A stretch of DNA of 64,000 bases, taken from an uncultured Alphaproteobacteria bacterium. GTDB taxonomy: Bacteria > Pseudomonadota > Alphaproteobacteria > Puniceispirillales > Marisalimonadaceae. The notes beneath the pieces were generated by a model. That model searched no databases. It was not told the DNA's origin and worked only from the letters and a program-made list of their open reading frames with translations. Location of the stretch: assembly GCA_937142855.1 (NCBI GenBank), contig CAKZQZ010000055.1:1-64000 (forward strand), given 5' to 3'. Positions within the stretch are counted from its first letter, which is position 1; each line of letters starts with the position of its first letter. The position numbers and the translations under genes are program-made. Shown here one piece after another: positions 9,699 through 14,332 of this stretch.

Positions 9699-10625
9699 AT
9701 GAGAATAACTAGAAATGTAAAAAAAATACTTAATTATTACGAAAGTGATAATCCAGGTGTTAAAGCAAATTTAGCTAGAATTTTAATGTCTGGCAGATTA
9801 GCTGGAACTGGTAAATTAGTTATTCTGCCTGTAGATCAAGGCTTTGAGCATGGGCCTGCTAGATCTTTTGCTAAAAACGAAATTGCCTATGACCCTCATT
9901 ATCACTTTAAACTAGCTATAGACGCAGGCCTCTCAGCGTATGCAGCTCCTTTAGGTATGCTAGAAGCCGGAGCAAATACCTTTGCAGGACAAATACCACT
10001 GATAATGAAAATTAACAGCTCTAACTCTCTTTCTCGTGAAAAAGATGCACCTTCTCAAGCTATCACAGGTTCCGTCTCTGAGGCAGTAAGGTTAGGATGC
10101 TCCGCAGTTGGGTTCACAATTTATCCAGGATCGGATGATGCATTAAATATGATTTCTGAAATTCAAGAAATAGCTCTTGAAGCAAAGGATTCTGGCCTTG
10201 CTGTGGTTGTTTGGAGTTATCCAAGAGGAGGCAATATTAGCAAGAATGGAGAAACTGCTATTGATATAGTTTCATACGCTGCACATATGGCAGCCTTAGT
10301 TGGAGCTCATATAATCAAGGTCAAACCCCCAACTTCACATATTGAACTAGAAGAAGCTAAAAAAGTCTATATATCAGAGAATATACCGATTGAGAAACTT
10401 AGTGATAGAATAAGACATGTAGTTCAATCATGTTTTCAAGGAAGAAGACTTGTGGTTTTTTCAGGAGGCACTTCAAAGGATGAAGAAAGTCTTCTCAAAG
10501 AGATAAAAGATTTATATATGGGTGGTGCAAGCGGTTCTATTATAGGCAGAAATTCATTTCAAAGAGAATATAATGACGCTCTATCTTTATTAAATAAAAT
10601 AACAACTATTTATAAAGGTAAATGA
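9699..10625 (+). CDS. fbaB: Class I fructose-bisphosphate aldolase (DhnA/FbaB type)
   Basis: A 308-residue TIM-barrel aldolase that cleaves fructose 1,6-bisphosphate in glycolysis or joins trioses in gluconeogenesis. The N-terminal VILPVDQGFEHGP motif and the Schiff-base lysine in IIKVKPP (about residue 204) are present, as is the phosphate-binding GRNSFQR end. GAGG lies 10 bases before the ATG. It is the first gene of a plus-strand group and ends one base before the efp start, so they are likely co-transcribed. Divergent from the zapA group across 137-150 bases. Confidence 0.93.
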   Translation: MRITRNVKKILNYYESDNPGVKANLARILMSGRLAGTGKLVILPVDQGFEHGPARSFAKNEIAYDPHYHFKLAIDAGLSAYAAPLGMLEAGANTFAGQIPLIMKINSSNSLSREKDAPSQAITGSVSEAVRLGCSAVGFTIYPGSDDALNMISEIQEIALEAKDSGLAVVVWSYPRGGNISKNGETAIDIVSYAAHMAALVGAHIIKVKPPTSHIELEEAKKVYISENIPIEKLSDRIRHVVQSCFQGRRLVVFSGGTSKDEESLLKEIKDLYMGGASGSIIGRNSFQREYNDALSLLNKITTIYKGK

Positions 10626-10626
10626 T

Positions 10627-11193
10627 TTGAAAGTTAATGGTAACACCATCAAACCAGGTAATGTAATCGAGCATAAAGGTGGCTTGTGGGTTGCGACTAA
10701 AACCAGTCATGTCAAGCCTGGGAAAGGTGGAGCATTTGCCCAAATAGAACTAAGAAACTTAAAGGATGGCACTAAACTTAATGAGCGCTTTCGTTCATCA
10801 GAAAATATTGAAAAAGTAATATTAGAAGAAACACCTCATGTATTTTTATACAAAGAAGGTGAAAATTTGATCTTCATGAATAATGAAAATTATGAGCAGA
10901 TAAATATAGATATTAATTTAATAGGTGATCAGTCTGCATTTTTACAAGACGGTATGAACGTTATAATTAATATGTATAATGATGACCCAGTCTCGGTCAT
11001 TATGCCTGAAACATGCGTTGAAGAAGTAGTAGAAGCTGATGCCGTAATAAAAGGGCAAACAGTTTCTTCTTCGTTTAAACCAGCGGTTTTAAAAAATGGA
11101 ATAAAAGTGATGGTTCCTGGACATATCGAGACTGGAACCAAAATTGTAGTTAGACCCTCAGATTGTACATATATAGAAAAAGCTAAAAACTAG
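10627..11193 (+). CDS. efp: Elongation factor P
   Basis: A 188-residue protein of three beta-barrel domains that eases peptide-bond formation at polyproline. KPGKGGAFAQ (residues about 30-39) carries the lysine at the loop tip that is modified in many bacteria; here it is K-G-G, as in other alphaproteobacterial EF-P. The start is TTG with AAAGGT at 10614-10619 inside the end of fbaB; the reading MKVNGNTIKPGNVIEHKGG matches the family. No epmA/epmB-type modification gene is seen in the window. Confidence 0.96.
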   Translation: MKVNGNTIKPGNVIEHKGGLWVATKTSHVKPGKGGAFAQIELRNLKDGTKLNERFRSSENIEKVILEETPHVFLYKEGENLIFMNNENYEQINIDINLIGDQSAFLQDGMNVIINMYNDDPVSVIMPETCVEEVVEADAVIKGQTVSSSFKPAVLKNGIKVMVPGHIETGTKIVVRPSDCTYIEKAKN

Positions 11194-11227: not shown

Positions 11228-12022
11228 ATGAGTAATAAATCACCCCTTCTAAACATTATGTCTCAATCTCTAAACAAAGTAACTAGAAACATTGTTAGAG
11301 ACTTTGGCGAAATTGAAAACTTACAAATTGCATCTTCATCAATAAATGATTTTGTCTCTAAGACTGAAAAAAAAATCTATGAATCCTTATCTTATGATTT
11401 AACAAAATCTAGACCTGAATGGGGTATAAAAATTAATAAAAATTTTACAGGTGATAAAGATAAGTATTATTGGGTAGTTGAAACATTAAATGGAAAATAT
11501 AATTTTTTACATGGATTACCATATTTTTGTATAACTATTTCAGTTGAATACAATAATGAGATTATTGCTACAATTATTCTAGATCCATTAAGAGATGAAA
11601 CTTTCTTTGCAGAAAAAGGAAAAGGTTCCTTTGTCAATGATAGAAGAATTAGGGTTACAAAAAGAGCTTCTCTGAACTCTTGTATTTTCTCCATTTATAA
11701 TGATAAGAAGAGTAATAAAATTCAAAAAATTAACTGTAATACTATTAGGTCATTAGCAATTAATTACTCAAGTTTAACGAGAGAGTTTGGGTCGTCAGCA
11801 CTAAGCTTTGCTTGGTTAGCATGTGGAAAGATAGATTGTTTGTTTATTGATAATTTAGATAAAAATCAAATTGCCTGTGGTTCTCTTCTAATTAAAGAAG
11901 CTGGGGGATATTTAACTAATACAAAATACATAGATGCTTATAAGTCTCCAAATGAATTTATAATTGGTGCAAATCCAACTTTACATAAAGAAATATTAAA
12001 AAAATTAAATAATATGAATTAA
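11228..12022 (+). CDS. suhB: SuhB / inositol monophosphatase-family protein with lost catalytic residues
   Basis: A 264-residue protein with the IMPase fold along its length and the expected position after efp. Every metal-binding motif is changed. The usual EE(S/G)G segment reads IKINKN (residues 67-72), DPLDGTTNF reads ETLNGKYNF (85-93), and PWDxAAG reads DKNQIACG (211-218). Flanking family positions such as NFLHGLPYF, FVNDRRIRV and EAGG remain. I therefore expect no phosphatase activity. E. coli SuhB is known to act with NusA in rRNA antitermination without needing catalysis, so a structural role could be what is kept here; that is inference. Confidence 0.9.
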   Translation: MSNKSPLLNIMSQSLNKVTRNIVRDFGEIENLQIASSSINDFVSKTEKKIYESLSYDLTKSRPEWGIKINKNFTGDKDKYYWVVETLNGKYNFLHGLPYFCITISVEYNNEIIATIILDPLRDETFFAEKGKGSFVNDRRIRVTKRASLNSCIFSIYNDKKSNKIQKINCNTIRSLAINYSSLTREFGSSALSFAWLACGKIDCLFIDNLDKNQIACGSLLIKEAGGYLTNTKYIDAYKSPNEFIIGANPTLHKEILKKLNNMN

Positions 12023-12105: not shown

Positions 12106-13158
12106 ATGACAGACCCTAATAAATATGCACTTAGAATGTTGTTTCTGTTAATAATAGTAGCCTGTTTAATATTCTTTTTATTTGAGCCATTAAAAAACGC
12201 ATTTGAAGGTAACACGATTTTAAATAGTGTTATAATAAGCACCTTCATTTTAGGAGCTATATTTGCCTTTCGTCAAACTTATAGATTAAGTAACGAGGCC
12301 AAATGGCTCAAATTTATTAAAAAAAAGAATAGTCTAATGCCAGCCAACATTGCTTTAAAAATAAAACCTATTCTTTTAGCACCTGTCGCAGCAGTTCTTT
12401 CTGAAGATAGGAAAGATAATCCATCATTATCAGCTAATTCTTTAAGTACTATCTTAGATGGGGTGTCATCAAGATTAGACGAGAGTAGAGAAATTTTAAG
12501 GTATATGATTGGATTGCTTGTTTTCCTAGGTCTACTTGGAACGTTTTGGGGGCTTTTACAAACAATTTCATCTGTGTCGGGGGTTATAAATACAATTGAC
12601 CTTAACATTAATAATGGCGCAGAAGAAGGGAATGCCTTGTTTATGGATATTCAAAAAGGACTAAGTGCTCCGCTAGATGGTATGTCAACAGCATTTTCAT
12701 CTTCACTCTTTGGGTTAGCAGCTTCATTGATACTTGGGTTTTTGGACCTTCAGGTTGGTCAGGCAAGTAATAGATTTTTTAATGAATTAGAAGATTGGCT
12801 TTCACAAATGGCAATTTTTACTACAAATGAAAATGGAAATGCTGGCCTTAGTGAGGCCTCTATAGAGAGTCTGGCAATTGTTGCCAAAAGAGCAAATCAG
12901 AATGAAAATGAGAAAATTAGAATAAATGAAAATATTAATGAATTAACTATTGTCCTAAATAGATTAGTTGAAAAACTTGATGAGGATAGAAGCGTCAAAG
13001 ATCATTTGATTGGGATATCATCAATTTTAAAAAATTTGGGTGAACAAAATATTGATAAATTTTCAGAAGTTCAAAATAATTTAACAATTGAATTAAGAGC
13101 AATTTCTAAACAGCTATCTAAAGCTGAAAAATCTGAAAATAAATTTGATCATAAATAA
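12106..13158 (+). CDS. MotA/TolQ/ExbB-family membrane protein, non-flagellar
   Basis: A 350-residue protein with four predicted membrane segments (about residues 10-27, 38-55, 132-152, 190-212). The third carries GLLGTFWGLLQTI, the TolQ/MotA-type proton-channel helix. A cytoplasmic helical tail of about 120 residues follows. The next gene encodes a MotB-like partner 28 bases downstream, so the two probably form a proton-driven stator. No flagellar genes are visible. This pair is widespread in Alphaproteobacteria after efp-suhB, but I know of no settled function. Confidence 0.85.
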   Translation: MTDPNKYALRMLFLLIIVACLIFFLFEPLKNAFEGNTILNSVIISTFILGAIFAFRQTYRLSNEAKWLKFIKKKNSLMPANIALKIKPILLAPVAAVLSEDRKDNPSLSANSLSTILDGVSSRLDESREILRYMIGLLVFLGLLGTFWGLLQTISSVSGVINTIDLNINNGAEEGNALFMDIQKGLSAPLDGMSTAFSSSLFGLAASLILGFLDLQVGQASNRFFNELEDWLSQMAIFTTNENGNAGLSEASIESLAIVAKRANQNENEKIRINENINELTIVLNRLVEKLDEDRSVKDHLIGISSILKNLGEQNIDKFSEVQNNLTIELRAISKQLSKAEKSENKFDHK

Positions 13159-13186: not shown

Positions 13187-14332
13187 ATGATAGTTAGCAA
13201 AATAAGAAAAAGGCAAGTTGATTACACATGGCCAGGATTTGTAGACGCTTTATCAAGTCTTTTGATGGTAATTATATTTGTTTTAATGATTTTTGTTTTA
13301 TCTCAGTTTTTTCTTTCTCAAAAGATGAGTGGACAAGATGAAGCTTTAATCAATTTAAGGAATAGTTTAGCTGAATTAGGAGAGCTCCTTTCTCTTGAGA
13401 GGGACACTACAACTGAACTAACATCACAATTATCAATTCTAGAAACAAAAATTACGAAATTTAAAAACGAACTTGAAGATGAAAAAAAACTTTCATCTGA
13501 ATTTAGAGAAAAGCTTGAGTCAAAAAACGATATAATAAGCTCAAATCAAAGTAAAATTTTAGAATTACAAAATGAAATTGATGATAAAATTCAAAATACT
13601 CTTCTTCTTCAAAATAATATAAATAATTTGAACAAAAGAATTGATTCAAGTCAATTAGAGTTAAATCAAAAAAATGACGAAATTAGCGCAAGTCAAAAAG
13701 AGATTAACACATTAATCTCAGCATCTTTAAAATTAAGAAACAAACTTTCACAATTACAAACATTGTTATCTGCATATAAAGCTAAAGATAAAAAAGAAAA
13801 AGTTAAAACCATTAATGTTGGAAAAGGTTTAAATAGTGCACTCGCTAGAAGAGTTGAAGAACTTCAAAAATTTAGGTCAGATTTTTTTGGGAGAGTAAGA
13901 GAGCTTATAAAAGGTAGAAAAGAAATACGAATTGTAGGAGATAGGTTTGTTTTTCAATCAGAAGTTCTTTTTGGACTTGGTTCTGATGAATTAGGTACTG
14001 CAGGTAAAATAGAAATGAAAAAACTGGCCACAACATTAATGGAAATAGAAAAATCGCTTCCAACAGATATTGACTGGATTCTTCAAATAGAAGGACATAC
14101 TGATAGCCTACCAGTGAAAAGAGGACAAAGTTATGCAGATAATTGGGAATTATCAACAAAAAGAGCGCTCTCTGTACTAAGGTTTTTAATTAAAGAAGGT
14201 ATTAATCCACAAAAGTTATCTGCATCTGGTTTTGGAAGTTATCAGCCTATTGATGCTAAAAATACTGACGAAGCAAGAATGAAAAACAGAAGAATAGAAA
14301 TGAAAATCACTCAAAGTACAATATCAAAATAA
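13187..14332 (+). CDS. MotB/OmpA-like peptidoglycan-binding stator partner
   Basis: A 381-residue protein with a short cytoplasmic start, one membrane helix (residues about 20-42) beginning at WPGFVDALSSLL, a long coiled coil (about 50-200) and a C-terminal OmpA/MotB peptidoglycan-binding domain (EGHTDSLP, NWELSTKRAL, NRRIEMKI). The aspartate in FVDA is a candidate proton carrier, as in MotB. The coiled coil is much longer than in flagellar MotB, implying a wide reach across the periplasm. Partner of the upstream MotA-like protein. Confidence 0.85.
   Translation: MIVSKIRKRQVDYTWPGFVDALSSLLMVIIFVLMIFVLSQFFLSQKMSGQDEALINLRNSLAELGELLSLERDTTTELTSQLSILETKITKFKNELEDEKKLSSEFREKLESKNDIISSNQSKILELQNEIDDKIQNTLLLQNNINNLNKRIDSSQLELNQKNDEISASQKEINTLISASLKLRNKLSQLQTLLSAYKAKDKKEKVKTINVGKGLNSALARRVEELQKFRSDFFGRVRELIKGRKEIRIVGDRFVFQSEVLFGLGSDELGTAGKIEMKKLATTLMEIEKSLPTDIDWILQIEGHTDSLPVKRGQSYADNWELSTKRALSVLRFLIKEGINPQKLSASGFGSYQPIDAKNTDEARMKNRRIEMKITQSTISK

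Follow-up and report, generated by a model that had tools for sequence, protein, structure and literature searches.

What is a SuhB protein kept for when the catalytic motifs of its inositol monophosphatase (IMPase) fold have been replaced? The question is raised by a gene in the window, by which we mean the whole stretch of 64,000 nucleotides that was analysed. The gene and its neighbors are arranged as follows.

9699..10625, plus strand: fba, class I fructose-bisphosphate aldolase, a neighbor conserved in several families
10627..11193, plus strand: efp, elongation factor P, the conserved neighbor upstream
11228..12022, plus strand: suhB orthologue, an IMPase fold without its active site (264 aa; ATG at 11228, stop codon at 12020-12022)
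12106..13158, plus strand: MotA/TolQ-type proton-channel protein, a conserved neighbor downstream
13187..14332, plus strand: OmpA/MotB-type protein, a conserved neighbor downstream

The open reading frame is a SuhB orthologue because it matches the Pfam family Inositol_P (PF00459; 95.2 bits with a cut-off of 27, covering profile positions 6-268 of 271), because its best sequence match in the PDB is the Bartonella henselae SuhB structure 3luz (E 1.5e-46), and because its gene order is common to ligand-intact relatives in the same order (SAR116). The gene starts 34 bp past efp within the local order fba-efp-suhB-motA-ompA, and the arrangement efp-suhB-motA-ompA also surrounds suhB of those relatives, which bears out the statement of a first-pass annotation of this DNA that the position after efp is kept. 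The annotation had also regarded the fold as intact, and the AlphaFold model (pLDDT 87.8) agrees. Foldseek ranks the SuhB structures of Bartonella and Pseudomonas first, with that of E. coli among the next, and 3luz is also the best structural match in the PDB (TM 0.83/0.92). The model matches the SuhB chains of 6tqn (an rrn antitermination complex) and 6ib8 (SuhB with NusA AR2) at a TM of about 0.85. The protein scores 104 bits and does not reach the cut-off of 332 for the NCBIfam equivalog PRK10757 (inositol-1-monophosphatase), a model that looks E. coli-centred and that was compared without the scores of ligand-intact alphaproteobacterial copies. This shortfall lowers confidence in the label "inositol-1-monophosphatase", not in the SuhB orthology of the protein. 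The window's lineage falls within the SAR116 clade; among the relatives found, SCGC AAA536-G10 is the nearest that has a name, and its SuhB is 70% identical.

Residues are numbered here from E. coli SuhB (L055), which was used as the alignment reference. Alignment to this protein locates the replaced active-site codons.

11366..11368, plus strand: E47, replacing catalytic D44
11435..11440, plus strand: N70-K71, replacing metal-ligand residues E67 and E68
11480..11497, plus strand: ETLNGK (E85-K90), replacing DPLDGT (D84, D87 and T89)
11864..11869, plus strand: N213-Q214, replacing W211-D212

Position by position, D44 is replaced by E47, E67 by N70, E68 by K71, D84 by E85, D87 by N88, T89 by K90, W211 by N213 and D212 by Q214, and the four metal ligands E67, D84, D87 and D212 thus read N, E, N and Q. 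The acid/base pair D44/T89, which we take to be equivalent to D47/T95 of the human enzyme, is replaced too (E and K), a point beyond the first-pass annotation. That annotation had reported changes at ligand positions in all three IMPase signatures, and the same losses are present in every congener read. E67, D87 and D212 are lost in 31 of 31 sequences from the window's genus and its sister genus; residue 87 is N in all 31, and residue 212 is Q in 94% of them and Glu in the sister genus. The annotation's further claim that every ligand is gone holds by residue identity, but the change of D84 to Glu is the mildest of the set and is peculiar to the window, D84 being retained in 97% of the 31 sequences. 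The Glu could still touch metal. The substitutions are not due to chance, because they recur in every congener read, and misassembly or contamination was rejected, because the sequences agree across dozens of congeners that were assembled separately from single cells and metagenomes. Judged by its residues, the window SuhB has very likely lost catalysis. A site that takes a different metal or substrate and is still catalytic would fit with the acidic residue kept at position 84, and with L86 and G88, which remain in the genus and sister genus. However, E67, D87, D212, D44 and T89 are all gone, their replacements differ between lineages, and no new conserved acidic set was seen, whereas one would expect a re-tooled site to show convergence. 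We therefore regard a changed enzyme as very improbable.

Another explanation is neutral decay, in which suhB is on its way out of a shrinking genome. This idea draws on the small size of many genomes in which SuhB is dead (a term used here for copies in which at least two of the four metal ligands are gone), the median being 1.5 Mb for those on the species tree described below, and on a constraint weaker than that of efp. However, dN/dS (Nei-Gojobori) for SuhB is 0.07-0.21 between closest pairs, and its median over 151 pairs is 0.146; efp gives 0.084 and motA 0.075. The constraint is strong but about half that of the neighbors (dN/dS about twice as high), and is somewhat relaxed in this sense. 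No frameshifts or internal stops were found in the SuhB orthologues read from the window's genus. In-frame stops in three g13 copies were considered as signs of decay and rejected; the matches and the open frame have nearly the same length, so each is read as a terminal stop. Dead copies are also conserved deeply, through all genera of the window's family, and occur in genomes of 3.6-5 Mb (G191, G310, and families f162 and f166). The first-pass annotation had proposed to look in relatives for purifying selection and the same substitutions, and both were found (dN/dS of about 0.15, with E67, D87 and D212 lost throughout the genus and sister genus); the neutral decay or stop codons that it envisaged as contrary evidence were not seen among these uninterrupted orthologues. 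Neutral decay is already refuted for the window's genus by the selection result, and we give it hardly any credence.

Within the order, dead SuhB is found in family f3 and throughout the window's family (f1), which has four genera. Families f2 and f4 have kept the ligands. The SuhB proteins of these two families, which are Puniceispirillaceae-type SAR116 copies, and the SuhB of Bartonella henselae (3luz, 3lv0) are 31-39% identical to the window SuhB and retain EE, DPLDGT and WDxAAG, which the window SuhB does not. The f2 and f4 genes have the same efp linkage as the window gene, and all of these proteins carry a closely similar version of the following motif.

11297..11326, plus strand: codons for RDFGEIENLQ (residues 24-33), a motif of alphaproteobacterial SuhB that both active and dead copies retain and that E. 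coli SuhB lacks

Families f1 and f3 group together on a tree of RpoB and RpoC with weak support (SH-aLRT 80), so their loss represents one or two events.

The first-pass annotation suggested that this lineage could be a natural separation of two SuhB roles. The lineage is not singular in this respect. Among 192 Alphaproteobacteria genomes searched, about 80 SuhB best matches or syntenic copies were read, mainly from the low-scoring end together with a sample of the rest. Dead SuhB is found in at least 25 of these genomes, which represent about 20 families and include that of Candidatus Endolissoclinum faulkneri L5. Since sampling favored weak matches, 25 of 192 gives a minimum number and no unbiased frequency. 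Most of the dead alphaproteobacterial copies are orthologues because they lie directly downstream of efp, and the orthology of the most diverged ones (G300, G244, G256 and G306) rests mainly on this linkage. A species tree was made from RpoB and RpoC (39 taxa, 2745 columns). It implies at least 14 changes of active or dead state, 12 of which are forced by strongly supported branches. Dead and active copies occur as pairs within single families (G314/G226 in f95, G191/G290 in f60, and G277/G170 in f39).

Dead SuhB is also found in Gammaproteobacteria, including E. coli's own family. Three genomes of 1.0-1.2 Mb in that family (G424, G514 and G435) encode SuhB proteins that are 60-65% identical to that of E. 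coli and have at least two ligands gone. In families f162, f166, f174 and f186, the SuhB adjoining trmJ, which is the E. coli-like position, is dead. Ligand-intact paralogues were read from f162, f166 and f174, and no trmJ lies beside them. Best-match logic alone was rejected as a guide to orthology, because in f162 and f166 the best match to E. coli SuhB is the intact paralogue, and the trmJ-linked orthologue is dead.

Some further observations concern individual gammaproteobacterial genes. L331, L332 and L333, from 1.0-1.2 Mb genomes of E. coli's family, all have E67K, plus D84N, D87N/S or D212N/E. The trmJ-linked SuhB proteins L351, L356, L357, L358 and L360 (f162, f166 and f174) are highly diverged and dead, and the intact paralogue in these families can be mistaken for SuhB by best match. 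G399 and G417 (f149) yielded nothing closer than a distant IMPase-fold protein, and the SuhB orthologue of other f149 members was not detected, which might reflect incomplete assembly or real loss.

The recurrence of active-site loss is the main new point of this work. We consider it probable that SuhB is a recurrent pseudoenzyme, whose syntenic orthologue has lost the phosphatase site many times independently in Alphaproteobacteria and Gammaproteobacteria, with the gene kept. If so, the phosphatase would be dispensable, and the selected function of SuhB would be non-catalytic. SuhB has two roles, as an inositol phosphatase and as an rRNA transcription factor; the question of which of them selection acts on has rested so far on E. 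coli mutants, and a dozen or more natural losses would answer it by evolution. The annotation "inositol-1-monophosphatase" would then be wrong for these genes in many genomes. No paper reporting recurrent SuhB active-site loss was found in the literature searched, whose coverage is incomplete, and a literature search for SuhB D87N found nothing.

A phosphatase need in these cells might be met by related proteins. The first-pass annotation had called for a search for a second, active IMPase, and a family search of the window's genome revealed three further PF00459 proteins, all with intact motifs. Two of the three are nearest to CysQ and HisN, scoring just under the cut-offs of those models, and the third does not clearly belong to one type. 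Going by these motifs, any phosphatase need of the window's genome can presumably be met by these proteins. The ligands are kept in 26 of 26 non-SuhB paralogues whose sequence was read, a control somewhat biased toward intact copies by being found through similarity to intact SuhB. Such intact paralogues share genomes with dead SuhB. However, some small genomes that carry dead SuhB yielded no other IMPase family member at the thresholds used; one example is G192 (0.9 Mb, 100% complete). A search of phages returned distant IMPase-like records only.

The residues that dead copies lose and keep were compared by using 27 dead copies spread over families and 85 reference positions, each of which is conserved in 75% or more of 62 active SuhB proteins from Alphaproteobacteria. 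The least-kept positions are D44, E68, W211, D212, E67, G70, D84, T89 and G156 (4-15%). At the six catalytic positions, 4-41% of the dead copies still have the conserved residue (4% at D44 and 15% at T89), whereas retention at the 79 other conserved positions averages 65%. This active-site-specific loss is not circular, because D44, E68, W211 and T89 played no part in defining the dead set. Best kept are N91, G132, E25, L55, R139, E222, D22, P119 and G198 (E. coli numbering). The motif R21-D22-F23-x-E25-x3-L29-Q30 (RDFGExxxLQ) hardly varies in alphaproteobacterial SuhB and, taken as a block, is retained at 81-96% in dead copies; its retention exceeds that of other conserved positions (Mann-Whitney P 0.002, for a motif chosen post hoc). 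We regard RDFGExxxLQ as a candidate class-specific partner surface. If SuhB is indeed a recurrent pseudoenzyme, the positions that dead copies retain (RDFGExxxLQ in alphaproteobacteria; N91, G132, R139/R141 and E222) would mark the surfaces and folding elements that the non-catalytic function needs.

A candidate for such a function comes from E. coli, in which SuhB binds NusA AR2 and an rRNA leader element and brings in NusB and S10. IMPase activity is dispensable for the cellular role of E. coli SuhB (PMC6614801, PMC4807359), in agreement with the first-pass annotation, which had held that the antitermination role needs no catalysis. On the simplest account, dead SuhB acts likewise: it would dimerise, bind NusA via its AR2 repeat together with the rRNA leader, and help NusB-S10 to join the complex, and the outcome would be support of rRNA transcription, folding and ribosome assembly. 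The NusA of the window's genome (G000:C90) has both C-terminal TIGR01954 repeats, which, with the E. coli precedent, makes a Nus role of the window SuhB likely. The window SuhB has both of the E. coli AR2-contact residues, K251 and L254, which 94% and 97% of the genus keep. Several observations speak against carrying the E. coli picture over unaltered. These two residues are poorly conserved across alphaproteobacterial SuhB at large, active or dead, and the E. coli-type contact signature was rejected as an uninformative class-wide test for this reason. No convincing C-terminal TIGR01954 repeat was found in NusA of two dead-SuhB lineages, G244 and G245, which may thus lack the AR2 contact of the E. 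coli type. A clear boxA-like element precedes 16S in two of the six dead-lineage leaders checked (G221 and G314). No 16S was found in the window's assembly, and in the one congener leader (G009) no boxA scored better than shuffles.

Dead SuhB might instead be kept for another non-catalytic job, unrelated to rRNA transcription, in EF-P function or translation, with the motA and ompA neighbors, or with an alphaproteobacterial partner on the RDFGExxxLQ surface. The adjacency of suhB to efp across Alphaproteobacteria suggests such a link, and the retention in dead copies of a motif that E. coli SuhB lacks implies that the partner could differ from that of E. coli. However, the same pattern is found in gammaproteobacteria, in which the neighbor is trmJ and not efp, and among the dead copies are those of E. 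coli's own family, close homologues of a protein whose Nus role is established. Another job is therefore unlikely, although less so than the other alternatives. In our judgment, the SuhB orthologue encoded in the window probably can no longer act as a Mg2+-dependent phosphatase and is retained for a structural role, which is most likely that of the SuhB subunit in the Nus/rRNA transcription complex. The first-pass proposal of a non-enzymatic job stands in that purifying selection maintains the protein although its catalytic site is gone; the part concerning NusA and rRNA is extrapolated from E. coli.

Known systems resemble the window SuhB in different respects. E. coli SuhB (NP_417028.1; PDB 2qfl, 6ib7, 6ib8 and 6tqn) has the same fold and length and belongs to the same orthologous family. 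In contrast, it is an active IMPase with a full metal-binding site, none of whose side chains is present in the window SuhB, and it has neither the RDFGExxxLQ motif nor the linkage to efp, both of which the window gene has. IMPase-defective laboratory variants of E. coli SuhB show no suhB growth defect, as cited in PMC4807359. They are active-site variants like the window SuhB, but the change in the window is natural, is fixed family-wide and replaces the entire site. Pseudoenzymes and pseudophosphatases (PMC5106787, PMC10211241) likewise keep an enzyme fold and lose its catalytic motifs. However, in the present case the orthologue itself is dead, through repeated independent loss, and is not a duplicate beside an active copy.

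A further case is that of the tunicate symbiont Candidatus Endolissoclinum faulkneri L5. Its SuhB (L151/L244/L263) has E67 changed to K, T89 to A and D212 to N, with D84 and D87 kept. This is a partial and perhaps recent loss, and the active relative G226 belongs to the same family.
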